NCBI GenBank assembly: GCA_013289165.1
Contig: JABDAL010000014.1
Span: 1 to 39,950, forward strand
Direction: 5' to 3'
Source of the DNA: Bacteroidota bacterium
Lineage (GTDB): Bacteria; Bacteroidota; Bacteroidia; JABEUT01
DNA length: 39,950 nt
In this document: in pieces, positions 3,326 through 36,388 of the stretch
How the letters are laid out: every line of letters starts with the position of its first letter
Position numbering within the stretch: position 1 is the stretch's first letter
Program-made: the position numbers and the translations under genes
Notes under the pieces: generated by a model
Seen by the model: the letters and a program-made list of their open reading frames with translations, nothing else
Told to the model about the DNA's origin: nothing
Databases searched by the model: none

Positions 3326-3690
3326 AGAAAATTTTAAATCCTGAATGAGGAATAATGATTTTTTTGGTTAATTTCTAAAATCCATTGTGTGATGCCCATG
3401 CCTACCAAAAATAGATTCGGCAGGATTTTTCCCAAAATGGGTCCGTTTGGGAGTGAAAAAACGGATAGAATTCTATTGAATTGAAAAAGTTTTATGTCAC
3501 GGTTTTTTACGGAATGGCAACGTGACATAAAGATAGTAGGCTCACAAAACCAATTACTTAAGGTAGCTTTTTACCGTGACGTATTTTTTTGGACATCGTG
3601 ACATATCTTTTTGTGATATAAGTGTGTGGCAATTACGTAGCAAATAAATGGGGCTCTACTCTAAACAATGGTTGATGAGTGGGAGGAATT
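3326..3690. other. Gene-poor stretch between rplM promoter and the XRE regulator
   Basis: I see no credible gene here. A 64-codon minus-strand frame at 3334-3528 lacks any family signature and crosses the repeats. The stretch is AT-rich and contains a cluster of CGTGACAT-type motifs at 3492-3605, annotated separately. Confidence 0.6.
3492..3605. repeat. Cluster of CGTGACATA-type motifs (one inverted pair plus two direct copies)
   Basis: TTATGTCACG (3492-3501) and its exact inverse CGTGACATAA (3521-3530) flank a 19-bp spacer. CGTGACGTAT (3575-3584) and CGTGACATAT (3596-3605) follow in direct orientation, 21 bp apart. Four near-identical copies in about 110 bp look like binding sites for a dimeric or multimeric regulator. 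They lie 165-290 bp upstream of the rplM -7 element and downstream of the stop of the neighbouring XRE gene. Which promoter they serve is unknown. Confidence 0.55.
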
Positions 3691-3936
3691 TCAATTAAAT
3701 CCTTTAAAAAAGTCTTCAAGTGTGATGTTCAGGGCTTTACAAACTCTAACAAGGCTACTGAATCTCATATCCTCGCCTCTTTCCAGCCTGGAATAATAGC
3801 TCAGAGTATATTCATTATCATAGGCAAATGTTTCTTGGGAGGTATATCCTTTAGCCTGTCTTAATTCTTTAATACGTTTACCTAATTGGGTAACTTCTTT
3901 AGGTTTTGGCTTTGTTTTCTCTGATACCTTTTTCAT
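3691..3936 (-). CDS. Small XRE-family helix-turn-helix transcriptional regulator
   Basis: This 81-residue product is essentially a single Cro/CI-type HTH domain. After a basic leader (KKVSEKTKPKPKEV) comes TQLGKRIKELRQAKGYTSQE, a segment with the recognition helix around YTLSYYSRLERGED, and LVRVCKALNITLEDFF, the classic last helix of the family. The frame stays open upstream to 4119, but that part has no HTH features and crosses an inverted repeat. The internal ATG at 3934-3936 directly before the basic leader is therefore the better start. The gene is transcribed toward rplM and has a 9-bp-arm inverted repeat just upstream, suggesting autoregulation. Single-domain XRE proteins occur in phage, toxin-antitoxin and accessory loci; no partner gene is evident. 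Confidence 0.8.
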   Translation of the reverse strand: MKKVSEKTKPKPKEVTQLGKRIKELRQAKGYTSQETFAYDNEYTLSYYSRLERGEDMRFSSLVRVCKALNITLEDFFKGFN

Positions 3937-3976
3937 AAAAGACAGGATTTTAAAAGGGACTGTCAATTTTATGAGT

Positions 3977-4027
3977 TTAGCACCGTTTATATTAGCACTA
4001 TTAAATGCAGTACTTATAAGTGCTAAT
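3977..4027. promoter_or_regulatory. Putative operator: TTAGCAC repeats upstream of the XRE gene
   Basis: ATTAGCACT (3991-3999) and AGTGCTAAT (4019-4027) are perfect 9-bp inverted arms with a 19-bp spacer. A third TTAGCAC copy lies at 3977-3983. All are 40-90 bp upstream of the XRE start codon, a natural place for autoregulation. The 19-bp spacer equals that of the inverted pair at 3492-3530, although the motif differs. Confidence 0.45.
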
Positions 4028-4131
4028 TGGATAATTTTCTTTATTATTGCAGCATACATGAAAGATTTAGGCCTTAAAGACATTGTAATTACAAGAATTG
4101 CGTCTCCAGTAAATGACATCTTACAGTTATT

Positions 4132-4302
4132 ATGTTTTATAAATATTATTTCGGAATATCCAGATGGAAGATTAGCAAAAACTTTGAGTTAAATGTGTAT
4201 TTTGAAAAGGCGAAGTTTACTATTGACAAATTAAAAGGTACAGCGGTAGATCAGTATGCTGGAACAACATTTAATCTAGATCCGCAGAGTTTATTAGATT
4301 GA
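4132..4302 (+). pseudogene. Small open frame that may be the detached 5' part of the YadA-like gene
   Basis: This frame encodes 56 residues and ends FTIDKLKGTAVDQYAGTTF followed by NLDPQSLLD. It stops exactly where the repeat-protein frame becomes open (from 4298, in the next frame). Ignoring one base near 4297 would join the two as a continuous product through SLLIEALDGCSGSGNAIVGF, with no other change. The frame has no recognisable domain and no promoter. It may be the remains of the original N-terminus, separated by a frameshift, or a chance frame. Confidence 0.3.
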
Positions 4303-4354
4303 AGCATTAGATGGCTGTTCAGGTAGCGGTAATGCTATTGTCGGGTTTGCTGCT

Positions 4355-5491
4355 ATGTTTAATTCAAATAGTGCCGCCAGCTATAATGTCGCAGAAGGTT
4401 ATGAAGCTCTTTATAATAATACAGCCGATAATAATGTAGCTATCGGCGCAAGTGCACTTTATCGTAATACTATCGGTAGTTATAATGTAGCAGTAGGTTA
4501 TGATGCCCTTTATAGTAATGTAGAGGCAGGTCAGAATGTAGCAGTAGGTTATGAAGCATTATATACTCAGTCATACTCGGGATATACTGCTAATACTGCA
4601 ATAGGATATGCTGCTTTATATTCAAATCAACCGACTTCAGATGGTAATAGGATGAGTAATACTGCAGTAGGGGCAGCTGCACTTGTGGGAAATACTACTG
4701 GATACGATAATACTGCAGTAGGTCTTGCTGCAATGTATGAAAATCAGACAGGGATACAAAATACTGCAATGGGAGAATATGCATTGTATTTTAGCAATGC
4801 GAGTGGTTGTGTTGCCAACGGATTTAGTGCATTGGGAAGCAATATTACCGGTAACTATAACACAGCTAATGGTTACTCAGCTCTAGGTTATACTACTTCA
4901 GGAACTTTTAATGTGGCAGATGGAGCAAATGGTCTGTTAACCAATACAACAGGAAGTAGTAATAGTGCAATTGGAATGAACGCTTTAAGAAATATAAATG
5001 GGAGCCGGAATACTGCGTGCGGAGATTCAGCAGGATATAATGATAACGGGGGATACTATAATACTTATATAGGTTACCAGGCGAATACAGGAGCATCGTC
5101 ATCGCTTGCAAATGCAATTGCAATAGGTTATGGAGCAACAGTTTTATACAGTAACTCAGCTGTAGTGGGTAATAGTAACCTGACAACATTTGGTATAGGG
5201 GCAGGAGCCTATGCAGTTCCGGTACAAGTAAATTCTGCAATTTCAGGTACAGTAGTTTCAAACGGAAGCCAGATGTTACTCTTAACAGGTTCTGCTATAG
5301 GTGTATTAACTATTACAGATCCCTCATCTCCTAAAGATGGGCAACTTTGGGAAATAACAACCAACCAATCTTCTACACCTTTGGCATATACAAATCCCAG
5401 TAATTTTGTATCGGCACCGACGAGTGTAGGAGCAAATAATCCGGTTCGGTTTTTTTATTCTGCATCACTTTCCCTATGGGTTAATCAATAA
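4355..5491 (+). CDS. YadA-head-like repeat protein, 5' end probably missing
   Basis: The 378-residue product consists almost entirely of about 15 units of roughly 20-26 residues built on N(V/T)A(V/I)GYxALYxN. This is the left-handed beta-roll pattern of YadA-type trimeric heads. In Bacteroidota and phages such units occur in fibre-like proteins that often end in an S74 endosialidase chaperone. No S74 domain is visible here; the last roughly 100 residues are a non-repeat tail (ending NPVRFFYSASLSLWVNQ). The only available ATG (4355) lies inside a repeat unit, because SGNAIVGFAAMF upstream is already repeat sequence in frame and open back to 4298. There is no signal peptide. The gene is therefore probably truncated or frameshifted. 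A bidirectional terminator follows. Confidence 0.6.
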   Translation: MFNSNSAASYNVAEGYEALYNNTADNNVAIGASALYRNTIGSYNVAVGYDALYSNVEAGQNVAVGYEALYTQSYSGYTANTAIGYAALYSNQPTSDGNRMSNTAVGAAALVGNTTGYDNTAVGLAAMYENQTGIQNTAMGEYALYFSNASGCVANGFSALGSNITGNYNTANGYSALGYTTSGTFNVADGANGLLTNTTGSSNSAIGMNALRNINGSRNTACGDSAGYNDNGGYYNTYIGYQANTGASSSLANAIAIGYGATVLYSNSAVVGNSNLTTFGIGAGAYAVPVQVNSAISGTVVSNGSQMLLLTGSAIGVLTITDPSSPKDGQLWEITTNQSSTPLAYTNPSNFVSAPTSVGANNPVRFFYSASLSLWVNQ

Positions 5492-5507
5492 TCTGGTTGA
5501 TGAAAAC

Positions 5508-5545
5508 AAAAAGTCCCGTTCTGCGAAAGTGGAACGGGACTTTTT
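5508..5545. terminator. Bidirectional terminator between convergent genes
   Basis: AAAAAGTCCCGTTC (5508-5521) and GAACGGGACTTTTT (5532-5545) form a perfect 14-bp stem with a 10-base loop. It is flanked by A and T runs, so it can act on both strands. It lies 16 bases after the repeat-protein stop and 18 bases before the stop of the convergent gene at 5564. Confidence 0.9.
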
Positions 5546-5563
5546 ATAATAGAGCTATATAGC

Positions 5564-6538
5564 TTACTTAACTATACTGAATTTCCCTACATTCAATTGG
5601 GTTCCGTTATCATCTAACAACCTATAGAGATATAGGCCATTAGTATATGACTGGGTATTAATGCTAAGGAAGTTATTGCGAATAGCATAGGTTCCTATAG
5701 ACTTACCCGAAATGTCATAAACTTCTACCTTGCTTGCCTGGTATTGGCCTGTAACAGCAAGGTTGATTTGGGTATTTGCCGGGTTAGGATAGAGGTTCAC
5801 ATTGTCTTGCTCAGCAGTAATATTATCAATACCCAATATAGTATTTGAAGTGCCATCTAAATCCATCGTGTCATAAGGTTTTGGCTTAGATTTTAAGGAG
5901 CAGGCACTATATAAAATAAAGATAGAATCGGGTGCCGTTTGGGCAGTGTAGGTAACATTAACCGTGGCCGATGTCCATGAGGTTTGTTTGGTATTAGCAT
6001 ACCAGCTACCCGTCCCGATTACTTTACCTGCCGTAGATAAGGAAACAAGGCAGAAGCATGAATCTGTACCATTGGGAATATAGCGGTAATAAAATGAAAA
6101 TGATTTCATTTTATGAACAAAAGGATAACCTTTTCTAACTGTAAGGCCATTTCCGCTGGCACTTACATAGCCTGTAAAAAGGAGTCCATTAGTATCAGGG
6201 TATGGAAACCCATATTTTTGCATGAGAGCATATGAGCCATTATTTCCTTCTGTCATTACATTCGAAACAATCCTGGCATAGTACTTGCCCTGTTCCGGGA
6301 GAGGCTTTACACTGTCCCTAAATACAGTAATAGGAGTACCACCAAGCAAACTGAAGTTTAATACATTAAACTCCCACCACCCATTGTTTGAATTACCGGC
6401 ATTAGGGTCATAGGCTGCAACGAGAGGATTTGGTGTCCATTTTTCAAAGCCGGGGTTATAAATAGTATCAGCTTGGGCGCTTGCTGTTTGCATGGCCTGC
6501 AAGGAGATTACACCGAGTAAAAGGAATAGTTTTTTCAT
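5564..6538 (-). CDS. Secreted protein with T9SS type A sorting domain
   Basis: The product has 324 residues when started at the ATG 6536-6538. This start gives a clean signal peptide (MKKLFLLLGVISLQAMQTASAQ), whereas the 13-residue in-frame extension spoils it. The mature part begins with NPGFEKWTPNP and is beta-rich with many aromatic residues. It resembles jelly-roll carbohydrate-binding modules and the PCMD-type domains of Bacteroidota, but this match is tentative. The last roughly 80 residues are a type A T9SS sorting domain: LYPNPANTQINL, KVEVYDISGKSIG, then SYTNGLYLYRLLDDNG and a C-terminal GKFSIVK. The protein is thus expected to be exported by Sec, passed through the T9SS and cut by PorU, which is encoded in this window. 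A good promoter lies upstream. Confidence 0.85.
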   Translation of the reverse strand: MKKLFLLLGVISLQAMQTASAQADTIYNPGFEKWTPNPLVAAYDPNAGNSNNGWWEFNVLNFSLLGGTPITVFRDSVKPLPEQGKYYARIVSNVMTEGNNGSYALMQKYGFPYPDTNGLLFTGYVSASGNGLTVRKGYPFVHKMKSFSFYYRYIPNGTDSCFCLVSLSTAGKVIGTGSWYANTKQTSWTSATVNVTYTAQTAPDSIFILYSACSLKSKPKPYDTMDLDGTSNTILGIDNITAEQDNVNLYPNPANTQINLAVTGQYQASKVEVYDISGKSIGTYAIRNNFLSINTQSYTNGLYLYRLLDDNGTQLNVGKFSIVK

Positions 6539-6651
6539 ATTGTTTAGTTTTTGAATGTTAATATTGCCCATACGCAACCAGCCTGAAAAAGGTTGGGTAT
6601 AATGGGAAATAAAATTAGGTAATTTTTTGTAAAGGTTTGTTTTTTAAGGTG

Positions 6652-6686
6652 CAAAAGTAAAAAAATGTTTAAAATACATACAACAA
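6652..6686 (-). promoter_or_regulatory. Promoter for the T9SS type A protein gene
   Basis: On the minus strand TTGTTG (6686-6681) is followed after 21 bp by TACTTTTG (6659-6652). Both elements and the spacing fit the Bacteroidota -33/-7 promoter. The leader to the start at 6538 would be about 105 bases. Confidence 0.6.
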
Positions 6687-6772
6687 TGTTTTTAATCTGA
6701 TAGATTCCAAACAAAGTGAAGAATCTGTCCTTCCTGTATTATCCTTTGGGGCAAAAGGAAGCATAAAATAGT

Positions 6773-6780
6773 TAAGTTTG
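6773..6780 (+). promoter_or_regulatory. -7 promoter element for glyS
   Basis: TAAGTTTG matches TAnnTTTG and ends 28 bases before the glycyl-tRNA synthetase start. A TTTG at 6745-6748 could be the -33 element, but its 24-bp spacing is longer than usual. Confidence 0.5.
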
Positions 6781-6808
6781 TTGCCCAAACAGGAGCAGAG
6801 CCATTGAT

Positions 6809-8347
6809 ATGAATAATGAAGAGCACTTTAAAAATGTAATTTCCCACAGCAAGGAGTATGGGTTTATTTTTCCATCGAGCGAAATATATGACGGGCTTAG
6901 CGCTGTGTATGACTATGGTTCTTATGGGGTTGAGCTGAAGAATAATATCCGTTCCTATTGGTGGAAATCCATGGTGCAGCTACATGAAAACATTGTAGGC
7001 ATAGACTCTGCTATTTTTATGCATCCTACTATTTGGAAGGCATCCGGCCATGTGGATGCTTTTAATGACCCCCTGATTGATAACAAAGATTCTAAAAAGC
7101 GCTACCGGGCAGATAACCTGATAGAAGATTATCTCGCCAAGCAGGCTGATAAGATTGAAAAAGAAGTAGATAAAGCCAAAAAGAGGTTTGGAGAAAAATT
7201 TGATGAGGCTTTGTACCGCTCCACTAATCCAAGGATAAAAGAAATACAAAGTGGTATTGAGACAGTCTACTCCCGCTTTAAAAAGGCGATGGAAGACAGT
7301 GATTTGACGGAATTAAGGCAGTTAATAATTGATTGTGAGATTGTTTGCCCCATTTCGGGAACAAAAAACTGGACCGATGTAAGACAGTTCAACCTGATGT
7401 TTTCCACCAGTATGGGTGCTATGGAGGAAAGCTCAAACCTGCTATATCTGCGGCCGGAAACCGCACAGGGCATTTTTGTAAACTTTTTGAATGTGCAGAA
7501 AACTACGAGGATGAAAATTCCTTTTGGAATTGCACAAACGGGAAAGGCTTTCCGGAACGAGATAGTGGCCCGCCAGTTTATTTTCCGTATGCGGGAATTC
7601 GAACAAATGGAGATGCAGTTTTTTGTACAGCCCGGTGCCGAACTGGAGTGGTATGAATACTGGAAAAACAAGCGCCTTGCATGGCACCACAGCCTGGGAT
7701 TCCCTGCTGCAAAATACAGGTTTAAGGACCATACCAAGTTGGCACATTATGCCAATGCTGCCAGCGATATTGAATTTGAGTTTCCTTTTGGATTTAAGGA
7801 ACTGGAAGGCATACACTCCCGCACCGATTTTGACCTTAAAAGCCATGAAAAATATTCCGGTAAAAAGCTGCAATATTTCGACCCGGAATTAAATAGCAGC
7901 TATGTTCCTTATGTGGTAGAAACTTCCATTGGGCTCGACCGCACTGTATTGGCCATACTCTCACAGTCGCTTGTAACCGAAAAACTGGAAGACGGAACCG
8001 AAAGAGCTGTAATGAATATACCCCATTTCCTGGCTCCTGTAAAAGTGGGTGTACTTCCTTTAGTTAAGAAAGACGGGCTACCCGAAAAGGCAATGGAAAT
8101 ATTCAACAGCCTGAAATGGCATACGTATTGCCAATATGATGAAAAAGACTCTATCGGCAAGCGCTACCGCAGGCAGGATGCTATCGGAACACCCTATTGT
8201 ATCACCATTGACCACCAAACATTAGAAGATAATACCGTTACCATTCGCGATAGGGATACGATGAAGCAAGAGCGTGTAAATGTAGCTGAAATGGAAAATA
8301 TCGTGATGAAAAAAGTGGATGTAACGGAAGCACTGAAGAGACTCTAA
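6809..8347 (+). CDS. glyS: Glycine--tRNA ligase, dimeric (alpha2) type
   Basis: This class II enzyme charges tRNA-Gly with glycine in the cytosol. It is the single-chain, eukaryote/archaea-like homodimeric form, not the two-subunit glyQ/glyS form. Visible features of the 512 residues are the N-terminal SHSKEYGFIFPSSEIYDG and the glycine-site segment LYLRPETAQGIFVNF. Motif 2 is GKAFRNEIVARQFIFRMREF, motif 3 is ETSIGLDRTVLAIL, and the C-terminal anticodon-binding domain contains KRYRRQDAIGTPYCITID. The length is close to that of compact bacterial members. The gene converges on xth, and their stop codons overlap. Confidence 0.97.
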   Translation: MNNEEHFKNVISHSKEYGFIFPSSEIYDGLSAVYDYGSYGVELKNNIRSYWWKSMVQLHENIVGIDSAIFMHPTIWKASGHVDAFNDPLIDNKDSKKRYRADNLIEDYLAKQADKIEKEVDKAKKRFGEKFDEALYRSTNPRIKEIQSGIETVYSRFKKAMEDSDLTELRQLIIDCEIVCPISGTKNWTDVRQFNLMFSTSMGAMEESSNLLYLRPETAQGIFVNFLNVQKTTRMKIPFGIAQTGKAFRNEIVARQFIFRMREFEQMEMQFFVQPGAELEWYEYWKNKRLAWHHSLGFPAAKYRFKDHTKLAHYANAASDIEFEFPFGFKELEGIHSRTDFDLKSHEKYSGKKLQYFDPELNSSYVPYVVETSIGLDRTVLAILSQSLVTEKLEDGTERAVMNIPHFLAPVKVGVLPLVKKDGLPEKAMEIFNSLKWHTYCQYDEKDSIGKRYRRQDAIGTPYCITIDHQTLEDNTVTIRDRDTMKQERVNVAEMENIVMKKVDVTEALKRL

Positions 8348-25870: not shown

Positions 25871-26842
25871 TTAGAAGGAAGGACAGTTAACAACCCTATA
25901 ACTATGATGTTTTGGACGGCATTGGAACTGGAATATGAGCGACAGTTCATGAGACCCTCCTGTTGCTAATGTCAGTTTCGAAATGGTTATATCGTAGCTG
26001 TATCCAAACTTAACGGTGCCCTTGTCTAACCCAATTAATAATATAATTGCGTCATCAGTTCTGTACCAAAAGCCACCAATTACGGAGCCTTTAATAGCAT
26101 AAAAGCCAAGATCAATTTGTTGAAAGCTGCCTTGTTGTTGGAAAAGTATATTTGGGGAGAGATTAAGTTCGTCCTCAGAAAAAGAAGAACCGGTATTAAC
26201 AGGAATCATAGCCCCCGCGTGAACAGTGTATTTGATTGGTAAAGGACTGCTACCTTGAACCAACGATTCATCAGGTTGTGTAAGGTGATCAACGGCAAAG
26301 CCGAAAAACACATTTTTTCCATATCCTAACATGCCAACCGAGAAATCGGGAACAGCTACAGAAGTACGGGTTAATTGCTCGGCGGTCGGATAAATAAATC
26401 CATAAATAGGGTCAATTTGGTCGCCAAAACTAAGTTTGCTTTCGTTAATGCTTAGCTGGTGATAAGTTGCCTGGAAACCTGTATTGATGGTAAAGTTTCT
26501 GGTAACATTTAACTGGTAAGCATATATGGCACTCAGGTTGGTATTAGTAAGCACTCCACCTGCTTTATCTTGTTCCATAAGCAAACCAATTCCACCTGAT
26601 ATTGCATCTATGTATCTGTCGAAGGAAGCACTATACGTTACATAATTACCGGGAATAGCCGGCCATTGGTCGCGGAAATCCAGGCAAATACGGGGACACC
26701 GCTCACTTCCTGCAAAAGCCGGATTAAGATACAACGGATTAGCATAAAATTGCGTAAACTGTGCATCTTGAGCGGTTGTATTATATATTATTCCTCCCGT
26801 CATAGCCAATGAAAGTGAAGCGATAAGTAATAATTTTCTCAT
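25871..26842 (-). CDS. PorP/SprF family type IX secretion membrane protein
   Basis: Members of this family are outer-membrane barrels. PorP belongs to the T9SS core locus, and SprF-like paralogues assist export of large partners such as SprB. From ATG 26840-26842 the product has 323 residues with a signal peptide (MRKLLLIASLSLAMTGGI, cleavage near TTAQ). The mature start DAQFTQFYANPLYLNPAFAG is the strongest family signature. VTYSASFDRYIDAISGGIGL and the rest of the repeated beta-strand pattern agree. It precedes gldJ by 28 bases and is divergent from porU. The porKLMN genes that usually accompany porP are absent here, and the usual large partner of an SprF is not adjacent, so paralogue identity is left open. 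Confidence 0.88.
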   Translation of the reverse strand: MRKLLLIASLSLAMTGGIIYNTTAQDAQFTQFYANPLYLNPAFAGSERCPRICLDFRDQWPAIPGNYVTYSASFDRYIDAISGGIGLLMEQDKAGGVLTNTNLSAIYAYQLNVTRNFTINTGFQATYHQLSINESKLSFGDQIDPIYGFIYPTAEQLTRTSVAVPDFSVGMLGYGKNVFFGFAVDHLTQPDESLVQGSSPLPIKYTVHAGAMIPVNTGSSFSEDELNLSPNILFQQQGSFQQIDLGFYAIKGSVIGGFWYRTDDAIILLIGLDKGTVKFGYSYDITISKLTLATGGSHELSLIFQFQCRPKHHSYRVVNCPSF

Positions 26843-26864
26843 AAAACAAAATGGCGTTAGGGGA

Positions 26865-26872
26865 CAAATGTA
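26865..26872 (-). promoter_or_regulatory. -7 promoter element for the porP/sprF-like - gldJ operon
   Basis: The minus strand reads TACATTTG, an exact TAnnTTTG match 22 bases upstream of the start codon. A TTTTG at 26900-26896 is a possible -33 element with about 23 bp spacing. Confidence 0.5.
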
Positions 26873-26905
26873 CGAAAAAAACATATGAAAGGTTACAAAA
26901 TCTGC

Positions 26906-26913
26906 TATTTTTG
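26906..26913 (+). promoter_or_regulatory. Possible -7 promoter element for porU
   Basis: TATTTTTG matches TAnnTTTG in the divergent intergenic region, about 110 bases before the porU start at 27023. A weaker TACCTTTA-like site lies nearer, around 26980. A start upstream of 26906 is unlikely for the protein. Confidence 0.3.
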
Positions 26914-27022
26914 GGTATATACAATAATTTTACCTCTTTATAGTTTCTTTTCGTGCAACAAGTTTAACCAACTAAAATTACCTTTATTTTGCAGCAGGAA
27001 TACAGAACCCCATTTATTAAAC

Positions 27023-30000
27023 ATGAAATTATCGACCCTGGTTTCTTCCCTGCTGTTTTTAGTATTGCCTTTTTATGGATGGTCGCAAGTAGTTCCTAAA
27101 AAGGTTTCTACAGCACCTGTACAAGCAAATACCACACCATCTCCGCTGGCATTAATCCCTTTGTCTTCGCGCCATGCTGCGTTTAACAGAAAGAATACAG
27201 GCAATAATGGCCAAATTAATTTAGTTTGGGGGAAACCTTATAAAGACAGGGTGGATGAAAATAGCCCGGAGGTAGAGTTTTTAAATTGCAAAGGTGCACT
27301 GTACACGCATAAAAATCATAATCTCCCCCAGATTTTTAGGCATATTAAACTAAATATAGGTTCTACCGGGGCCACAGCCACTATTGTAAATAGCAAATAT
27401 GTGCTATTGACGCCTGATGAGATTAAGGTTTTGTCTCCCAATCAGGCACTTATATCGCCAGATGTTATCCCCAGTATAAAGGTCGTATCGGAGTATAAGG
27501 AATTATATGCCAATGTTTCCTTTATTCCCATCAGGAAGAACGCAGTTACCGGCTCCTTTGAAAAATTGGTTTCTTTTTCGATTGAACTTCATCCCACTAA
27601 GGAAATTACCAAAGCTCCCAGTTCCCCTATCAATTTTGCCTCTAGTTCGGTATTGAATTCGGGAAGCACCTGGTTTAGGATTGGTGTTACAAAAGATGGA
27701 ATTTATAGGTTAAATTACTCGATGTTTAAAAAGGCAGGGATAGATATGTCAAGCCTAGTTCCTGCTAACATTCGCATATATGGTAATGGAGGGGCTATGT
27801 TACCGATATCAAATAAGGCTTATCGCCCGGATGACCTTATTGAAAATGCTATTTATGTAAGTGGGCAGAGCCACCCGGTGTTCGAGTCAAAAGATTATGT
27901 ATTATTTTATGGCCAAGGCCCTACAATATGGGCATATACTAATTCTGATGGTCGCTTTCATCATACGGTGAACCTGTATTCAGACACTACTTTTTATTTT
28001 GTAAATGTTGATTTGGGTTCCGGCAAAAGAATTTCGAATGAGTCATCATTAGTTGCAAAACCTACTGATACAGTAACCACATTTGACGATTATGCCTATC
28101 ATGAATTGGATGCAGTAAATCTAATTCAGTCGGGGAATGAATGGATGGGAGAAGAGTTTGAAGCCACTACCCAGTATACTTTTTCGTTTAATTTCCCGAA
28201 TATTTCCGGCTCAAGCCCATATTATGTTAATGCGGCAATTGCATCGCTCAATTGTAATCTACCAAGTAGTTATGCAGTGGGCCCTGCGGCTACAATATGT
28301 ACGATACCGGGCGTTCCTTGTCAGTTTGACGAAACTTATGCGGCTATGAATACGTGTAATTATACCGCCGTGCCTTCCGGCTCAAATATCTCTGTTACAG
28401 TTACAAAAATTACTCCTTCGGCGGTTGGATGGTTGTATTATTTGGAAGCCAATGCAAGAAGACAGCTAATAATGGGAAGCCAAACTCAAATGGAGTTTAG
28501 AGACAGTAAATCAGTAGGAAATGGGAACATATCACTTTTTAGTATTTCTTCTGTTAGCTCCATCCAAGTTTGGGATATAACAAATCCTCAAAATGTTTCA
28601 AATGTGGCTCTTTCAAATGCTAATGGCAACTATCAATTTATATTGCCATCGGATACTCTAAAACAATACCTGGCTTTTAATACAAAAACATTTGATAGTA
28701 ACGTTACTTATTTCGGGCGGGTAGGTAACCAAAATCTTCACGGCCTGCCACAGGCTGACATGATTATAGTTACCAATCTACTTTACTTACCGCAGGCGGA
28801 ACAATTGGCAAAGTTTCACACCACGCATGATAAGTTGCATGTAGATGTAGTCACTACCCAGCAGGTATACAATGAATATTCTTCCGGGCGCCAGGACCCT
28901 ACGGCCATGCGCGATTTTGCCATGATGCTATATAACCGGGCAACTAACTATGCAACCTCTCCCAAATATCTTTTATTGTTTGGCGATGGCTCTTTCGATC
29001 CCAAACACCGCATATCGGGAAACACCAATTTTGTTGTTTCGTATGAATCCAATGACTCTTTTGACCCCGTCGGGTCGTATGTATCGGATGATTATTTTGC
29101 CTTGCTGGATACTTCTGTAACCACTGTACCTGAAGAAGGGGAGTATAATGTTAATCTTGCTGTGGGCAGGATTACCGCGGATAATGTAACAGAAGCTCAG
29201 ACTTGCGTGAATAAAGTAATATCATACGAAACGCCCTCCGGCGAGGCTCTCAGTGCTACAAATTCGTGTTGCAATACACAGCAGTATAACCTGGGCAGTT
29301 GGAGAAACACAGTGTGCTTTATAGCTCACGATGGGGATGATGACCAATTTCAGGATGCGTCGGAAGGAATGGCTGCCGAAATAGATTCGAATTATAGAAA
29401 TTTGAATGTCAATAAAATCTACTTAGATGCTTACCAAATGGTTCAAACTCCGGGAGGACCACGTTACCCATCGGTTAATATAGCTATTGATAATCAAATG
29501 AATCAGGGCTTGTTGATATATAACTACGAGGGCCATGGCGGGCCAACAGGTTTGGCTGTTGAAAGGGTGCTTGATTTATCTGACATTAGTTCCTGGACCA
29601 ATATAAATGCATTACCGCTCTTCTTCAATGGTTCATGCGCTTTTGGAGAATGGGATAATCCTTTGCAGGTGTCAGGAGGTGAGTTATCTGTTACATTGCC
29701 TACAGGAGGTGTAATTGGTATGATGACTGCAACCCGTGCTGTTTATCTTTCCTTTAACGTTACACTCAATGACGCGTTTGTTGATTTGTTCTATAGTCCT
29801 TTACCTGATGGTAGTCTGCCTCGTATGGGAGATCTGCTGGCAGAATCGAAAAATATTTCCGGTGGAACCAATGTAAATAACCTCTCCTTCTCTTTAATTG
29901 GCGATCCTGCGGTGAGGCTAAATTATCCTAAATACAATGTAGTAACTACTTCCATCAATTCCCAGCCTGTTACTAAAATAGATACATTAAAAGCTCTTGC

Positions 30001-31012
30001 AAAAGTTACTGTTTCAGGATATGTGGCCGACAGTTCAAAACAGATAATGACCTCTTTTAATGGGTTGCTCACTCCCACTGTGTATGATAAATATGCCGAC
30101 ATCACTACGCTGTCGAACCTGGGTGCTGATCAAAGCCCTTCCGATACTTTTGCCTTACAGAACAACATTTTATACAAGGGATTGGTTTCGGTCAACAATG
30201 GTAAATTTAGTTTCACGTTCGTAATGCCCAAGGATATTCTCTATTACTATGGATTCGGGAAAATCAGCTACTATGCCGAAAATCAAGTAACTGATGCCAC
30301 AGGTAATTATGAAAATATTGTGGTAGGAGGCACTTCACCCACGGCACATAATAATGGGCTGGGCCCGAAAATCAGGCTTTACATAAATGACAGTAATTTT
30401 GTTTATGGCGGACTTACGAACCAAAATCCTTCCCTATATGCAATTGTATTTGATAGTAATGGAATAAACACCTCAGCCACTTCTATCGGGCATAATATTA
30501 CGGCTGTGCTTGATAACAATACTGCGAATACTTATGATTTAACTAACTACTATCAACCTTCGCTGAATAGTTATCAAAAAGGAACCATCACTTTCCCTTT
30601 GAGTTCATTGAGCAGCGGAACACACATAGTATCTTTACGTGTATGGAATGTATATGATAATACCTCTGTGGCCTCAACAGAATTTAATGTTGAGCCACAA
30701 TCAAACCTGCAACTGCAACATGTTCTCAACTATCCCAACCCATTTACTACCCACACGCAGTTTTACTTTGAAATTAACCAGGTATGTGACCAACTTGATG
30801 TTCAAATTCAGATATTTTCAGTTTCGGGTAAGTTAGTGAAGAATATTCTGACTTTTGTCAAAACAGATAGTTTCCGTTCCGAACCAATTGATTGGGATGG
30901 TAGGGACGAGTATGGTGATAAAATAGGCAAAGGTGTATACATATATCATATCAGGGTGAGAACCAGTAATGGTAGCATGGCGGATACATACCAGAAACTC
31001 GTCATATTATAA
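27023..31012 (+). CDS. porU: Type IX secretion system sortase PorU (C25 gingipain family)
   Basis: PorU is the cell-surface cysteine protease that removes the C-terminal sorting domain of T9SS cargo and attaches cargo to anionic lipopolysaccharide. The product has 1329 residues from ATG 27023, which gives a signal peptide (MKLSTLVSSLLFLVLPFYGW); the longer in-frame extension to 26885 does not. The C25 protease core (about residues 570-980) shows YLLLFGDGSFDPKHR and LAVGRITADNVTEAQ. His838 lies in NYEGHGGPTGL and Cys872 in FFNGSCAFGEWDN; this spacing fits the catalytic pair of known PorU. The C-terminus is a retained CTD-like domain (NYPNPFTTHTQFYFEI, IQIFSVSGKLVKN, WDGRDEYGDKIGKGVYIYHI). porV follows 84 bases later. 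Confidence 0.93.
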   Translation: MKLSTLVSSLLFLVLPFYGWSQVVPKKVSTAPVQANTTPSPLALIPLSSRHAAFNRKNTGNNGQINLVWGKPYKDRVDENSPEVEFLNCKGALYTHKNHNLPQIFRHIKLNIGSTGATATIVNSKYVLLTPDEIKVLSPNQALISPDVIPSIKVVSEYKELYANVSFIPIRKNAVTGSFEKLVSFSIELHPTKEITKAPSSPINFASSSVLNSGSTWFRIGVTKDGIYRLNYSMFKKAGIDMSSLVPANIRIYGNGGAMLPISNKAYRPDDLIENAIYVSGQSHPVFESKDYVLFYGQGPTIWAYTNSDGRFHHTVNLYSDTTFYFVNVDLGSGKRISNESSLVAKPTDTVTTFDDYAYHELDAVNLIQSGNEWMGEEFEATTQYTFSFNFPNISGSSPYYVNAAIASLNCNLPSSYAVGPAATICTIPGVPCQFDETYAAMNTCNYTAVPSGSNISVTVTKITPSAVGWLYYLEANARRQLIMGSQTQMEFRDSKSVGNGNISLFSISSVSSIQVWDITNPQNVSNVALSNANGNYQFILPSDTLKQYLAFNTKTFDSNVTYFGRVGNQNLHGLPQADMIIVTNLLYLPQAEQLAKFHTTHDKLHVDVVTTQQVYNEYSSGRQDPTAMRDFAMMLYNRATNYATSPKYLLLFGDGSFDPKHRISGNTNFVVSYESNDSFDPVGSYVSDDYFALLDTSVTTVPEEGEYNVNLAVGRITADNVTEAQTCVNKVISYETPSGEALSATNSCCNTQQYNLGSWRNTVCFIAHDGDDDQFQDASEGMAAEIDSNYRNLNVNKIYLDAYQMVQTPGGPRYPSVNIAIDNQMNQGLLIYNYEGHGGPTGLAVERVLDLSDISSWTNINALPLFFNGSCAFGEWDNPLQVSGGELSVTLPTGGVIGMMTATRAVYLSFNVTLNDAFVDLFYSPLPDGSLPRMGDLLAESKNISGGTNVNNLSFSLIGDPAVRLNYPKYNVVTTSINSQPVTKIDTLKALAKVTVSGYVADSSKQIMTSFNGLLTPTVYDKYADITTLSNLGADQSPSDTFALQNNILYKGLVSVNNGKFSFTFVMPKDILYYYGFGKISYYAENQVTDATGNYENIVVGGTSPTAHNNGLGPKIRLYINDSNFVYGGLTNQNPSLYAIVFDSNGINTSATSIGHNITAVLDNNTANTYDLTNYYQPSLNSYQKGTITFPLSSLSSGTHIVSLRVWNVYDNTSVASTEFNVEPQSNLQLQHVLNYPNPFTTHTQFYFEINQVCDQLDVQIQIFSVSGKLVKNILTFVKTDSFRSEPIDWDGRDEYGDKIGKGVYIYHIRVRTSNGSMADTYQKLVIL

Positions 31013-31019
31013 GCTTTTC

Positions 31020-31027
31020 TATATTTG
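31020..31027 (+). promoter_or_regulatory. Possible -7 promoter element for porV
   Basis: TATATTTG matches TAnnTTTG and starts 8 bases after the porU stop, 69 bases before the porV start. It may allow porV-ispF expression independent of porU. Confidence 0.4.
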
Positions 31028-31096
31028 TACCCCTTTTGTTAAATCTAATATACTATTTGATGATTTAAAGCGTTACTAAATTCTCTTATATCATAT

Positions 31097-32347
31097 ATGA
31101 AGCTTAGTACTCCCTGTAAACTCGTTCTGGCGTTGGGGTTATTTCCATTTGCCGGCTCTTCTTTATTTGCCCAAAGTAACGTATTGGGTCAAAATCTGGC
31201 AAATAATGTTAATGTGGTAACTACAGCTGTACCATTTTTGTTGATAAGCCCTGATGCGCGGGCTGGTGGAATGGGTGATGCAGGAGTGGCTTCAACCCCT
31301 GATGCAAATTCTATGGGTTGGAATCCTTCCAAGTATGGCTTTATTGAAGATGATATGGGTTTTTCAGTTTCTTACACCCCCTGGTTGCGTCAATTAGTAC
31401 CTGATATAAATTTGGGGTATCTTTCTTTTTATAAGAAAATGAAACCTAACCAGACCTTGGCTGTTGCTATGCGTTATTTTTCTTTAGGAAATATTGACTT
31501 TACCGATGCTAATGGGCAAAGTATAGGAAGTTTTACCCCGGAAGAATATTCCCTTGATGTGGCGTATGCACTCAAGTTGAATGATAATTGGGGAGTAGGT
31601 ATGGCAGCCAGGTACATATATTCCAATCTCACCGGTGGTGTTTCAGTAGGTGGAGAATATACTTCAGCCGGAAGATCATTGGGTGTGGATATATCTTCCT
31701 ACTATAGGTCGAAAGAATTGGAATGGGGAGGGAAAAAAACCACCATTGCTGCCGGAATTTGCATTTCAAACATTGGCCCTAAAATCAGTTATACGAATAG
31801 TGGCAACCCTGATTTTTTACCGACTAATCTTCGCCTGGGTCCCAGCATAACTATTAATTTGGACGAGTATAATAAAATAACCTGGTTACTTGATATTACC
31901 AAGTTGTTGGTGCCCACTCCGCCGGTATATAAAACAGATTCGTCCGGAGTAGTGACAGGTCCTAATGGATTAAAAGAAGTTTTAGCAGGTCAAAATCCAA
32001 ATGTATCCGTGCCCCAGGGTATGATTCAGTCATTTTATGATGCACCGGGTGGAGGCTTGGAAGAATTTCATGAAATTGACTATGCCACCGGATTTGAATA
32101 CTGGTACGATAATCAATTTGCAGCCCGTGCCGGATTTTTTTATGAAAACCCTACCAAAGGAGACCGGCAATATATAACGATGGGTGCAGGTTTCAGGCTT
32201 AAGGTGATGAGCGTTGACCTTTCCTACCTTATTCCTATTACCACGCAAAACCCATTGCAAAACACCTTGAGAATAACACTTGGATTTAACCTTAATAAAT
32301 CTAAGAAAACAGATTCTGATAACCCTAGTCCCGACCCGGCCAACTAA
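31097..32347 (+). CDS. porV: Type IX secretion system outer-membrane protein PorV (LptO)
   Basis: PorV is a FadL-like 14-strand barrel that binds cargo at the SprA/Sov translocon and carries it to PorU. The 416 residues begin with a signal peptide (MKLSTPCKLVLALGLFPFAG, then FAQ) and the defining PFLLISPDARAGGMGDAGVA with the following DANSMGWNPSKYGF. The barrel strands and the late segment FEYWYDNQFAARAGFFYENP with DRQYITMGAGFRLKVMSVDL complete the family pattern. The short hydrophilic C-terminal end (DSDNPSPDPAN) lies beyond the last strand. It directly follows porU, as in Flavobacterium, and is 13 bases upstream of ispF. Confidence 0.95.
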   Translation: MKLSTPCKLVLALGLFPFAGSSLFAQSNVLGQNLANNVNVVTTAVPFLLISPDARAGGMGDAGVASTPDANSMGWNPSKYGFIEDDMGFSVSYTPWLRQLVPDINLGYLSFYKKMKPNQTLAVAMRYFSLGNIDFTDANGQSIGSFTPEEYSLDVAYALKLNDNWGVGMAARYIYSNLTGGVSVGGEYTSAGRSLGVDISSYYRSKELEWGGKKTTIAAGICISNIGPKISYTNSGNPDFLPTNLRLGPSITINLDEYNKITWLLDITKLLVPTPPVYKTDSSGVVTGPNGLKEVLAGQNPNVSVPQGMIQSFYDAPGGGLEEFHEIDYATGFEYWYDNQFAARAGFFYENPTKGDRQYITMGAGFRLKVMSVDLSYLIPITTQNPLQNTLRITLGFNLNKSKKTDSDNPSPDPAN

Positions 32348-32360
32348 TTTCTGAAGGCTT

Positions 32361-32840
32361 TTGAAATTCCGCGTTGGATACGGCTTTGATGTACATGCTT
32401 TGCAGGAAGGAAGGCCTTTTATGTTGGGTGGTGTTCAGATACCTTCCTCATTTGGCCCTGTGGGACATTCAGATGCCGATGTGCTTATACATGCCATTTG
32501 CGATGCCTTGCTGGGTGCTGCAGCACTGGGAGACATTGGCAAACATTTTCCTGATAGCTCCAGCGAATTTAAAAATATCGACAGCAAAATACTATTGCAA
32601 AGAGTAGTGGCAACTTTAAAAGAGAAGAACTATTCTATTGTAAATATTGATTCGACCGTTATTTTGGAGAAACCCAAAATAGCCCCTCATATAAACGACA
32701 TGCGGGAAACCCTTTCCCGGGTTATGGGAATATCTATAGATGACATTTCTATTAAAGCCACTACAAACGAAAAGATGGGGTATGTTGGCAGGCAGGAAGG
32801 TGTTTGTGCCCATGCTGTAGCATTGATAGAAAAGGCGTAA
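32361..32840 (+). CDS. ispF: 2-C-methyl-D-erythritol 2,4-cyclodiphosphate synthase
   Basis: IspF catalyses ring closure to MEcPP in the non-mevalonate isoprenoid pathway. The 159-residue product has all family marks. Zinc ligands Asp10 and His12 lie in VGYGFDVHAL and His44 in GHSDADVLIHAICDALLGA. GDIGKHFPDSS, ILEKPKIAPHI and the C-terminal KATTNEKMGYVGRQEGVCAHA also fit. The start is a TTG at 32361; it gives the standard N-terminus, and no ATG is better placed. The gene lies 13 bases after porV, so it is probably carried on the porV transcript. Confidence 0.96.
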   Translation: MKFRVGYGFDVHALQEGRPFMLGGVQIPSSFGPVGHSDADVLIHAICDALLGAAALGDIGKHFPDSSSEFKNIDSKILLQRVVATLKEKNYSIVNIDSTVILEKPKIAPHINDMRETLSRVMGISIDDISIKATTNEKMGYVGRQEGVCAHAVALIEKA

Positions 32841-32871: not shown

Positions 32872-32980
32872 ATGGGAGAAGTCCCATTTATTATTGCATA
32901 AAATCCCGTTTTGGGTTGCATAAAGTCCCATTTTGATACGTATAAAATATTATTATATTTGCATAAAATATCCTTGCAAA
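32872..32980 (+). repeat. Degenerate tandem repeats of about 22 bp in front of an unknown two-gene unit
   Basis: The best units are TTGCATAAAATCCCGTTTTG (32894) and TTGCATAAAGTCCCATTTTG (32916). A core AARTCCCRTT starts at 32879, 32901 and 32923, exactly 22 bp apart. Degenerate units continue at 32938 (GTATAAAATATT) and 32959 (TTGCATAAAATATCC). The first core also closes an inverted repeat ATGGGA-GAAG-TCCCAT (32872-32887). The third core overlaps the -33 element of the putative promoter. Two-helical-turn spacing on one face of the DNA suggests a cooperative regulator-binding array. There are no spacers of CRISPR type. Confidence 0.65.
32932..32961 (+). promoter_or_regulatory. Promoter for the 33123-36388 gene pair
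   Basis: TTTG (32932-32935), an 18-bp spacer and TATATTTG (32954-32961) form one of the best -33/-7 matches in the window. Transcription would start near 32968, leaving a leader of about 155 bases. Confidence 0.6.
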
Positions 32981-32987
32981 AGGATAT
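32968..32987 (+). promoter_or_regulatory. Hairpin at the predicted transcript start of the unknown unit
   Basis: ATATCCTT (32968-32975) and AAGGATAT (32980-32987) are perfect 8-bp arms around the tetraloop GCAA, a GNRA-type loop. The hairpin would sit at the very 5' end of the RNA and could protect it, or it could be a DNA operator over the start site. No T run follows, so it is not a terminator. Confidence 0.45.
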
Positions 32988-33122: not shown

Positions 33123-35408
33123 ATGAAACGGAGTTTTAATTTTTTTCTGTGTTTCTTTACTTTCATTAGTGGGGTTTTTATGTGTCAGGCCCAAAAAAGT
33201 TATACTATTCAATTTGACCAAACGGGTAAAATAATAGATGGATTACCTGAAAATTTAAAACCCGGCGATTCTATATATTTTCGGGTCCTGGGTGATGTTC
33301 CCACTTCCCTCGCTGAAACTCTAAAATTAAAAATTCAAGATGTTAAGAATTATGGAGAAAGAATTAAGGACAATACTTTTTTGAAAAATACTTATACTGA
33401 TTTTTTGGGAATTGATAATTCTGCTTTCATGGATTATCAGTTACCTTTAAGCAGAGATGGATATCCTTCTCCTATTGATACTACTGGTAAAGTAACGGCA
33501 TATAAAATAAAGATTTTTGACTTAACTTGTACAACCTGTGGGTCTGCTGTAAATGCTTCATACGATATATGTACAACCAGGTTGTTTGTAAAAAAGAATG
33601 GACTGGAAGTTGATGTAAAAGACAATACCGGTAAATATTCGCCTAGTGGGAAGGGGATTCCTTTAGGTCCCAATAATAAAATAGAGTTTTCATTGCTTAA
33701 AGATGATAGGTATAAAGAGTTTGTTTTTAAGTATTTTTCATTATGTATAAAGGATACTGCTGACATAAATAAATTGAATGCAACAAAAAATATAATAAAG
33801 GTTTTAAATAAACAAGCTATTAAATTAGTGGGCAATATTGACAGTGTAAAAAAACTACTAGTGGATACAGAAAGTAATTTATTATTGAAAGATACAGTTC
33901 GGTTCGCTAAAGATATAAACGTAGCCTTACAATTAATAATTTCAGCAGAGAATATTGATAATGAATACCATTTATTACTTCCTATAGCACATCAGTGGGT
34001 CTATGATTGGTTGTGGTATACAGGGGGTATACCAAAATTTAATCCTTTCCCCTTTATTTCTCCGGGCGATTTTAAAGAACCTGATACATCAGATTTGCCT
34101 GCCCTGCGTTTTTTATTAGCAAAATACCAGGAGGAATTTACAGCGCCTCATAAATATAACAACATATTCGATTCTATAAATAAAATAACCAAAAGAATAA
34201 ATCGTATCAAAAATTCCTTTCTACGGTATAAGCAGGATATAAAGAAGAATGATTCAATAATGAAAGATTTCTCTGTGACGGAGTATATTTTAAATAATTT
34301 TTTCTTTTATGACTCTTCTTCATTTTGGATGCGAAACCACGATGCTTCAAATAAAGAAAAATGGCTTAATCCGGCGGGAAAGCAAGAATATGATGAAAGC
34401 AATAGAATAATGATACTTAGCCATAATTTAAAGAAAAACCAAACAGTAAATATTACAATTTCTGTTACTCCATTTGTTGAATACTCTTCAATAGATGAGG
34501 GGCCTAACGGATTACCAAATCCACTTGGACAAGTAGCATTCCTAAAATCCACCAATGGAAAATCAAGTTGGGAGAGTAAACAATCTTCAAAGGAAACAAA
34601 ATCAAGTTTGTTAAAAAAACAGGAAGAACAATTGGCTAAACTGCGACAAGCTATATTAGATAATATAAATAATTTATCAAAAGAGAGACGACAGTTATCA
34701 GATACAATAAAAGAGGCGGATTATATTCTGGATTCTAATAATCATGGCTTTTATAAACCCAATCTTAATATTAAAAGTACTAAGGATAATACCCCTCTTT
34801 ATCATACCGAGGTTGCAAATGATGGGGGTAATTTAAAAGGCCCTAATAAAGTAACCTATACCTTTGATACAACAAGTGTACCTACTGCAAAAGTTTCGCT
34901 AAAGGATACAACAAAAATAAAAAATGGAAGCCCAACCGGTGGGGTCACTTTTACATATCAGGTTAATAAGCTATACCGCATATTACCTTTTATTGGATAT
35001 GCATTTGTGCCAAGCCAAATTTATACTCTTCAATTAAACAGTACCGGCACAGCACCTGCAAACTTAACTATAAGCCGTACTTCTATAGCTTACGCAGGAC
35101 TAAAAATAGAGCTTGGAAAAAGAGGAGAAAATATTAGAAGTGACAAAGCCATTTGGAAATTTAGTCTTGATGGTGGTTTTTCTATTCCCATTTCTGCAAA
35201 AGAATACTTTTTAGGGGTAGGATGTGATATCGTGCCTGGCGTATGCGTTAATGCCGGTGTAATGATTTATCCCTATCAATGGTATGATTTTCTTAATTCC
35301 CAATACGTTGTAGACTATAATACATATCGCCCGGGATTTTATTTTGGAGTTTCAACTGACCCCGCATTTGTTGCTGAGGTAGCAAAACTTTTAAACCTTA
35401 CAAAATGA
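33123..35408 (+). CDS. Exported protein of unknown function (761 aa)
   Basis: I do not recognise a family. The start gives a signal peptide (MKRSFNFFLCFFTFISGVFMCQAQ). The mature protein begins with a beta-strand region (KSYTIQFDQTGKIIDGLPEN) with a Cys-containing segment LTCTTCGSAVNASYDICTTR near residue 140. A largely helical middle follows (about 200-480), then a predicted coiled coil at about 485-545 (SSLLKKQEEQLAKLRQAILD and on to RRQLSDTIKEADY). The C-terminal roughly 150 residues are beta-rich (KLYRILPFIGYAFVPSQIYT, WKFSLDGGFSIPISAKEYFL, YRPGFYFGVS) and look like membrane-barrel strands. The TGA stop overlaps the ATG of the next gene (ATGA), so both are probably translated together. 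The DNA is more AT-rich than the flanking core genes. A repeat array and promoter lie upstream. Confidence 0.75.
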   Translation: MKRSFNFFLCFFTFISGVFMCQAQKSYTIQFDQTGKIIDGLPENLKPGDSIYFRVLGDVPTSLAETLKLKIQDVKNYGERIKDNTFLKNTYTDFLGIDNSAFMDYQLPLSRDGYPSPIDTTGKVTAYKIKIFDLTCTTCGSAVNASYDICTTRLFVKKNGLEVDVKDNTGKYSPSGKGIPLGPNNKIEFSLLKDDRYKEFVFKYFSLCIKDTADINKLNATKNIIKVLNKQAIKLVGNIDSVKKLLVDTESNLLLKDTVRFAKDINVALQLIISAENIDNEYHLLLPIAHQWVYDWLWYTGGIPKFNPFPFISPGDFKEPDTSDLPALRFLLAKYQEEFTAPHKYNNIFDSINKITKRINRIKNSFLRYKQDIKKNDSIMKDFSVTEYILNNFFFYDSSSFWMRNHDASNKEKWLNPAGKQEYDESNRIMILSHNLKKNQTVNITISVTPFVEYSSIDEGPNGLPNPLGQVAFLKSTNGKSSWESKQSSKETKSSLLKKQEEQLAKLRQAILDNINNLSKERRQLSDTIKEADYILDSNNHGFYKPNLNIKSTKDNTPLYHTEVANDGGNLKGPNKVTYTFDTTSVPTAKVSLKDTTKIKNGSPTGGVTFTYQVNKLYRILPFIGYAFVPSQIYTLQLNSTGTAPANLTISRTSIAYAGLKIELGKRGENIRSDKAIWKFSLDGGFSIPISAKEYFLGVGCDIVPGVCVNAGVMIYPYQWYDFLNSQYVVDYNTYRPGFYFGVSTDPAFVAEVAKLLNLTK

Positions 35409-36388
35409 AAATAAATTTGATTTATAAAATTTATTTTGCTTTGTTCAGTATCGTATTGCTTATTGTATCATGCAAAAAGCAACCGGATTTTAATAGTAAC
35501 GGAATGCTCCAAGGTCATGCCTTTTATTACGACTCTTCTACCAGCTTTCTGCCAATGCCGCTGAGAAAACAAACAATTTACATTAACAGAGGAATTACTA
35601 TAGATAGTAGTTTCTATTCAACAGTAACAGATACTGGAGGATATTTTAGCATACCATATCTTGATAATGGTCAATATACTTTATATGCTACTTACTTTAA
35701 CGGAAAAAAAATGTTTATTGGAAAACTGACTACATGGCTGCTCTATAATGGAGGAAATGATATTATATCCTTCAAACTTTCTTCTATTCAGGCAGGTAAT
35801 GGTGTAATACAGGGTCATGCCTATTATATAGATTCAACATTGAGTACCATACCTAAATCACTCAAAAAGGCAACCCTATACCTAAAAGACAGTAATGCAA
35901 CTATTGATTATGTTTATCCGGTTACAACCGATAGTACAGGATATTATATTATATCATATTTACCTATTGGATCCTATAATCTATATGGAACTTATTATAA
36001 TGGGGCAGAGCAATTCACGGGAGAAATCAAGAATATTACAATCACTGCTACTAATCAAAATATAATAGACTCTTCATTTTATTTGACCCCGCCAAAACCT
36101 AATAGCATAATGAACTTAATTTTTCAGATTAAGTCGGGTGGTTATCTGTCAAGACTCCCATTTAGTATATTCACGAGCAGGTCTTTGGCTAAAGTTGATT
36201 CAATACAGTATGCTTTACTAACCGCAAAATCAGATTCAATTGGATTGTATTTTATTCATAATTTACCAACAGATTCATTTTATATTGTTTCAAAAATAAC
36301 TCTCGATACAGTATACACAGTTGATACTGGGATAAGATTTAATTCGCCCGGCATCACTACATATAAAATTACTTTATATAAGCACTAA
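35405..36388 (+). CDS. Lipoprotein with repeated carboxypeptidase-regulatory-like (beta-sandwich) domains
   Basis: The 327-residue product has a lipoprotein signal (MKINLIYKIYFALFSIVLLI then VSC, Cys23 lipidated). Two clear repeats of about 99 residues follow. The first runs from LQGHAFYYDSSTSFLPMPLR to DTGGYFSIPYLDNGQYTLYA. The second runs from IQGHAYYIDSTLSTIPKSLK to DSTGYYIISYLPIGSYNLYG. A third, diverged copy from about residue 235 ends in SDSIGLYFIHNLPTDSFYIV. The G-x-Y-x-I/F-x-x-L-x-x-G-x-Y pattern is typical of CarboxypepD_reg-like or SusD-associated beta-sandwiches. No enzyme motif is present. It overlaps the upstream unknown gene by four bases, implying a shared complex or pathway at the cell envelope. 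Confidence 0.75.
   Translation: MKINLIYKIYFALFSIVLLIVSCKKQPDFNSNGMLQGHAFYYDSSTSFLPMPLRKQTIYINRGITIDSSFYSTVTDTGGYFSIPYLDNGQYTLYATYFNGKKMFIGKLTTWLLYNGGNDIISFKLSSIQAGNGVIQGHAYYIDSTLSTIPKSLKKATLYLKDSNATIDYVYPVTTDSTGYYIISYLPIGSYNLYGTYYNGAEQFTGEIKNITITATNQNIIDSSFYLTPPKPNSIMNLIFQIKSGGYLSRLPFSIFTSRSLAKVDSIQYALLTAKSDSIGLYFIHNLPTDSFYIVSKITLDTVYTVDTGIRFNSPGITTYKITLYKH

Follow-up and report, generated by a model that had tools for sequence, protein, structure and literature searches.

Phased palindromic units before an orphan gene pair of a Bacteroidota bacterium, and their recurrence at NarL/LuxR-type two-component operons

The array, its promoter and the neighbouring genes

We analysed a window of 39,950 nt (contig JABDAL010000014.1 of GCA_013289165.1, a 70%-complete draft genome), in which five repeat units at steps of 22, 22, 22 and 21 bp occupy the intergenic region between ispF and a gene for a 761-aa protein (Table 1). 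The protein has no homologue in the genus and none in GTDB contigs by peptide scan, and a class-level search returned a single marginal match (74 residues, E=3.7e-4). In the relatives with enough sequence past ispF other genes follow, most often one starting MNLTLKVWRQ on the opposite strand. The locus itself encodes no GerE regulator and no partner kinase. Two genes of type IX secretion lie elsewhere in the window (region 25871-32347), a PorP/SprF-like one (25871-26884, -) and PorV (31097-32347); they are separated by a 1375-aa gene.

Table 1. Positions of the features at the array locus and of the two-component modules compared with it
Feature	Position	Strand	Sequence or remark
ispF (YgbB)	32361-32840	+	conserved upstream neighbour
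Unit P	32872-32887	-	ATGGGAGAAGTCCCAT, 6-4-6 palindrome ATGGGA-GAAG-TCCCAT
Unit 2	32894-32913	-	TTGCATAAAATCCCGTTTTG; operator sense on - strand CGGGATTTTATGCAA; 22 bp from unit P
Unit 3	32916-32935	-	TTGCATAAAGTCCCATTTTG; operator sense TGGGACTTTATGCAA; 22 bp from unit 2
-33 box	32932-32935	+	TTTG
Weak unit 4	32938-32957	.	ACGTATAAAATATTATTATA; 22-bp step; pair score 26.7; without TCCC; over promoter core
-7 box	32954-32961	+	TATATTTG (TAnnTTTG); start expected near 32966
Weak unit 5	32959-32978	.	TTGCATAAAATATCCTTGCA; 21-bp step; TTGCATAAA exact, TCCC lost; over start site
GCAA-loop hairpin	32968-32987	+	perfect 8-bp stem; about +3 to +22 of expected transcript
761-aa protein gene	33123-35408	+	apparent signal peptide; no family match; orphan
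327-aa gene	35405-36388	+	probable lipoprotein, two carboxypeptidase-regulatory-like domains; 4-bp overlap with preceding stop
Membrane protein/HisKA_3 kinase/GerE regulator module, C24	L117: 11152-14333		
Same, C50	L198 (G000:C50): 3931-7196		
Same, C70	L234: 6306-8393		
Same, G010	L196: 445-3628		

An earlier sequence-only reading had described an AARTCCCRTT core at 32879, 32901 and 32923, with degenerate units beyond, and our recount in the sequence agrees on both points: the core recurs at steps of exactly 22 bp and two weak units continue the series, although these may be coincidental. Units 2 and 3 are near-identical (TTGCATAAARTCCCRTTTTG, at 32894 and 32916), and conservation within the array is concentrated in the core, where 12 of 13 positions are invariant against 3 of 9 in the spacer (p 0.007). 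We found no literature on the exact string GCATAAAGTCCC, and Rfam gave no match.

The predicted promoter, TTTG-N18-TATATTTG at 32932-32961, is likewise present and of Bacteroidota type; we take TTTG to be the -33 box, as is generally assumed for sigma-A promoters of this phylum. The pattern TTTG-N17-20-TAnnTTTG is 7.7-fold enriched per base in the intergenic DNA of this genome over its coding DNA (28 versus 26 sites), which makes the window promoter credible, and this promoter fits both boxes with no notable difference from the sigma-A pattern. The -7 element of Bacteroidota sigma-A promoters is the box at -12 to -5 (PMC9723704), and the window start should therefore lie near the position given in Table 1. 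The proposed overlap between array and promoter stands for the two weak units, which cover the promoter core, but not for the strong units, which lie just upstream of the -33 box.

A hairpin had also been proposed at the start site, and ATATCCTT-GCAA-AAGGATAT indeed forms one. Among 28 intergenic promoter-like sites this is the only one with a perfect stem of at least 7 bp at the start. The GNRA cap, by contrast, is meaningless in itself, since GNRA loops occur on 5 of 152 perfect 8-bp/4-nt hairpins, equal to the 1-in-32 chance rate. Folded alone, the hairpin stands out as stable (z -5.3, 31 nt); with longer flanks it no longer does (z -1.4 to -1.6). It may be read most simply as a separate feature, a 5' stabiliser of the long leader.

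The sequence-only reading went too far in holding that nothing like the interlocked repeats occurs elsewhere in the window, as another 22-bp-phased pair, belonging to a dispersed element, lies at 3572-3613. This intergenic element (window 3511-3651, -) occurs at about 28-34 places genome-wide, for example L099:15700-16010, and is built of TTATGTCACGGT motifs in a short form of about 125-135 bp and a long form of about 250 bp. It holds the direct pair CACCRTGACGTATTTTTTTGAC/CACCGTGACATATCTTTTTG and palindromes, is found in both orientations and in divergent, convergent and tandem gene settings, and is genome-specific, being absent from ten genus relatives; we regard this GTCACGG element as mobile or MITE-like. 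Kinship between it and the array was considered and rejected, there being no BLAST-level similarity. Two further repeats may be mentioned here. Convergent genes meet at window 5508-5546 in a bidirectional terminator hairpin, AAAAAGTCCCGTT...AACGGGACTTTTT, whose two strands both carry the AARTCCCRTT core by chance, and at L089:19567-19630 an exact 18-bp repeat in two copies (ATATTAATAAACAGAAAT) is directly followed by the inverted pair AAGTCCCGTT...AACAGGACTT. The 22-bp period also raised the idea of iterons of a replication origin, which we set aside, as the contig looks chromosomal (ispF, L13).

Recurrence of the array before two-component operons

A whole-genome search showed that the array motif is not scattered. 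BLAST gave one other place, C24:11034-11099, which is 77% identical over 66 bp (E 1e-7) and lies 69 bp before an apparent operon encoding a 326-aa lipoprotein, a 219-aa membrane protein, a HisKA_3 kinase and a GerE (LuxR-type) response regulator. A 14-mer of unit 3, TTGCATAAAGTCCC, is identical in the C24 array (0/300 shuffles). An orthologous operon with the array exists in another species (G010, on a contig also bearing etfB), where identity amounts to 26% for the first gene, 51% for the membrane protein, 65% for the kinase and 66% for the regulator; the upstream regions at C24 and G010 have in common the exact 17-mer ACGGGAGTTTTCCCGTA (0/300 shuffles) and the three-unit layout, so that the site is conserved at an orthologous promoter. 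In this genome the array also precedes a paralogous operon at C50, whose regulator is 58% identical. At G010 and C50 it consists of a GAnTTTATG-like unit followed by GGGAnTTTTCCCGT palindromes or their derivatives at steps of 22-24 bp. Domain matches above cut-off identify the regulators of C24, C50 and G010 as Response_reg+GerE proteins and the kinases of C24 and C50 as HisKA_3. A third paralogue, C70, is an operon of membrane protein, kinase and regulator (the latter 36% identical) and is directly preceded by the perfect palindrome TGGGGA-TTTT-TCCCCA. A fast-evolving secreted or lipoprotein gene precedes three of these four modules. In G009 kinase and regulator are kept with no array upstream, the preceding genes being lost or truncated there.

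The units are variations on one theme: ATGGGA-GAAG-TCCCAT in the window, ACGGGA-N4-TCCCGT at C24 and G010, and TGGGGA-N4-TCCCCA at C70. Common to the operons of the two species and the window pair are the ACGGGA-N4-TCCCGT palindrome and a half-degenerate form, GGGAnTTTATGC. Within 2.0 Mb, GGGA-N4-TCCC has 22 sites, and only those of the window, C24 and C50 are classed intergenic; the C70 palindrome is classed coding only because a doubtful opposite-strand ORF overlaps it.

We also built a site model from the operon sites alone, with no window site, and scanned 2.0 Mb (90.5% of the genome) for three units at 21-24-bp spacing. Three loci rose above random in this 90% of the genome, C24 (52.8), the window (41.0) and C50 (36.4), while five Markov random genomes peaked at 21.5-25.2. 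The C24 and C50 scores are partly built in, because both gave sites to the model, but the window score is not. C70, where the match lies directly before the operon, scored weaker, within the random range. With a model built solely from the two-component operons, unit 2 by itself reached 19.1, the fourth best score in 1.56 Mb.

Further afield the array fades out. Motif matches in the genus relatives are single, without neighbouring units. The 395 genomes of the class contain six matches beyond this genome, never more than one in any of them, where the reversed control gives two. None of the six looks like an extended array; with so few matches relative to the control and no extended arrays, we treat this wider spread as chance. 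Plasmids yielded nothing meaningful and viral contigs one match that is not an extended array. The 20 matches to the array pattern across all GTDB contigs belong to unrelated phyla, and many are tandem arrays of another kind, with GCATAAARTCC in them. Such 20-bp arrays occur in L043, L052 (Fictibacillus nanhaiensis), L036 (Phycisphaerales), L037 (Clostridiales) and L044 (Moorena), with long ones at two places in Fictibacillus, and are probably independent tandem repeats.

These comparisons bear on three other accounts of the array. That it is a dispersed or decaying tandem repeat of no regulatory role, comparable to the GTCACGG element, gains some plausibility from that element itself, a family of 28-34 copies with a 22-bp-phased pair that ten relatives lack, and from the existence of short two-copy tandem repeats of this period. 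However, the array motif is not dispersed, it persists in another species at an orthologous promoter where the first gene is only 26% identical, its promoter phase is kept and its core is conserved where its spacer is not; we therefore consider this account unlikely.

A LytTR-type regulator was a second candidate, since a typical LytTR site consists of 9-bp direct repeats separated by 12-13 bp, a period of 21-22 bp (PMC11347149, PMC6193735), and the CoxC operator comprises three direct repeats overlapping -35 (PMC11347149). The array resembles such operators (CoxC/RcoM) in its direct repeats at two helical turns, its three units and its position near or over -35; its steps of 22, 22, 22 and 21 bp and its promoter overlap agree, and this genome encodes five LytTR proteins (on C6, C77, C22, C10 and C29). 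None of these genes lies in the C24, C50 or C70 operons, however, and the array-bearing operons, from two species and two paralogues, all encode a GerE-type regulator and no LytTR protein, while the best units are 6-4-6 palindromes rather than simple direct repeats. The finding of the array at GerE-regulator operons led us to demote the LytTR reading, which we judge quite improbable.

Lastly, unit P can be read on the + strand as a terminator-like hairpin for ispF, and ATGGGAGAAGTCCCAT-TTATTATT obtains a terminator score. Unit P may act as an ispF terminator in addition, but that it is simply this terminator, the remainder being promoter DNA with chance repeats, is extremely improbable: its equivalents at C24, C50 and G010 precede operons, not gene ends, and the whole-array scores are far above those of random genomes.

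Geometry of the units relative to the promoter

Measured from the last G of the -7 box, the unit centres lie at -83.5/-60.5/-38.5 at C24 and -81.5/-59.5/-37.5 in the window, and at -93.5/-70.5/-47.5 at G010 and -94.5/-71.5/-49.5 at C50. Two arrays are thus shifted by about one helical turn from the other two, and all four are in phase within 2 bp (p 0.028, for four arrays only), the proximal unit sitting 37-50 bp upstream of the -7 box on one helical face. With respect to its promoter the window array runs opposite to those of C24, G010 and C50; the palindromic nature of the sites makes this tolerable, although it remains a real difference. Counting from a start five bases past the last G, the centre of the proximal window unit falls near -42, where an activator that touches the polymerase usually binds. 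Strong units just upstream of the -33 box are activator geometry.

The array had been proposed as a same-face cooperative operator of the two-gene unit, a proposal that was expected to fall if the repeats were absent at orthologues or scattered through the genome away from promoters. Neither outcome is seen. The motif is not scattered, and while the 761-aa gene offers no orthologues for comparison, the same three-unit array, in the same helical phase, is conserved at orthologous and paralogous operons, including orthologues of another putative target, the C24-type operon. The proposal of an operator is thereby supported, cooperativity being a plausible addition to it.

Repression is a variant of the same regulator reading, with which its probability overlaps: bound through weak units 4 and 5, the regulator would cover the -7 box and the start site. 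The units at 32938 and 32959 do continue the 21-22 bp spacing across the core promoter, but they are without TCCC, and at C24, G010 and C50 clear units are found solely upstream of the promoter. We regard repression as rather unlikely, with an appreciable residual chance.

A candidate regulator family and its targets

We propose, with good confidence, that the array serves as operator for a response regulator of NarL/LuxR type (GerE domain) from a paralogous family of sensor modules. The assignment to this regulator family follows from the match between the window units and those before its two-component operons, one in a related species included, and the site is probably an activator site for regulators of this family.

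The closest characterised parallel is ComA of Bacillus subtilis. Within the same promoters this GerE-type regulator recognises both 6-4-6 inverted repeats and direct repeats, which it uses for different modes of activation (PMC4797271). Both systems pair a GerE-type regulator with a partner histidine kinase, use a 6-4-6 inverted repeat (TTGCGG-N4-CCGCAA for ComA, ACGGGA-N4-TCCCGT here) and mix it with less symmetric sites at one promoter, upstream of the promoter. They differ in half-site sequence, in the Bacteroidota promoter used here, in the arrangement of sites (three units at 22-23-bp steps here, an inverted repeat accompanied by a 6-5-6 direct repeat for ComA) and in that the regulators described here are paralogues in one genome.

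A model based on these data would start from a module made up of a fast-evolving lipoprotein, a multi-span membrane protein, a HisKA_3 histidine kinase and a response regulator. Dimers of the phosphorylated regulator would bind the three units side by side, and the bound regulator could touch RNA polymerase at a -42-like position, or one turn further, and so activate transcription. In this way the C24 and C50 modules would be self-activating, and the envelope pair of 761 and 327 aa would be switched on as a further target of the C24-type regulator. More speculatively, the modules may constitute a hitherto undescribed group of paralogous two-component systems that sense the envelope in this lineage of Bacteroidota. 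All would read one tandem palindromic operator at fixed helical phase, and several sensors could then converge on orphan surface genes that they share, the window pair among them.

The kind of regulation proposed here is itself ordinary; what is new is the identification of a likely regulator. Where the gene behind a suspected operator lacks homologues, the other targets of the operator can serve to validate it, and the comparison offers a concrete candidate regulator and DNA site both for an orphan envelope pair and for a two-component family in a little-studied lineage of Bacteroidota.
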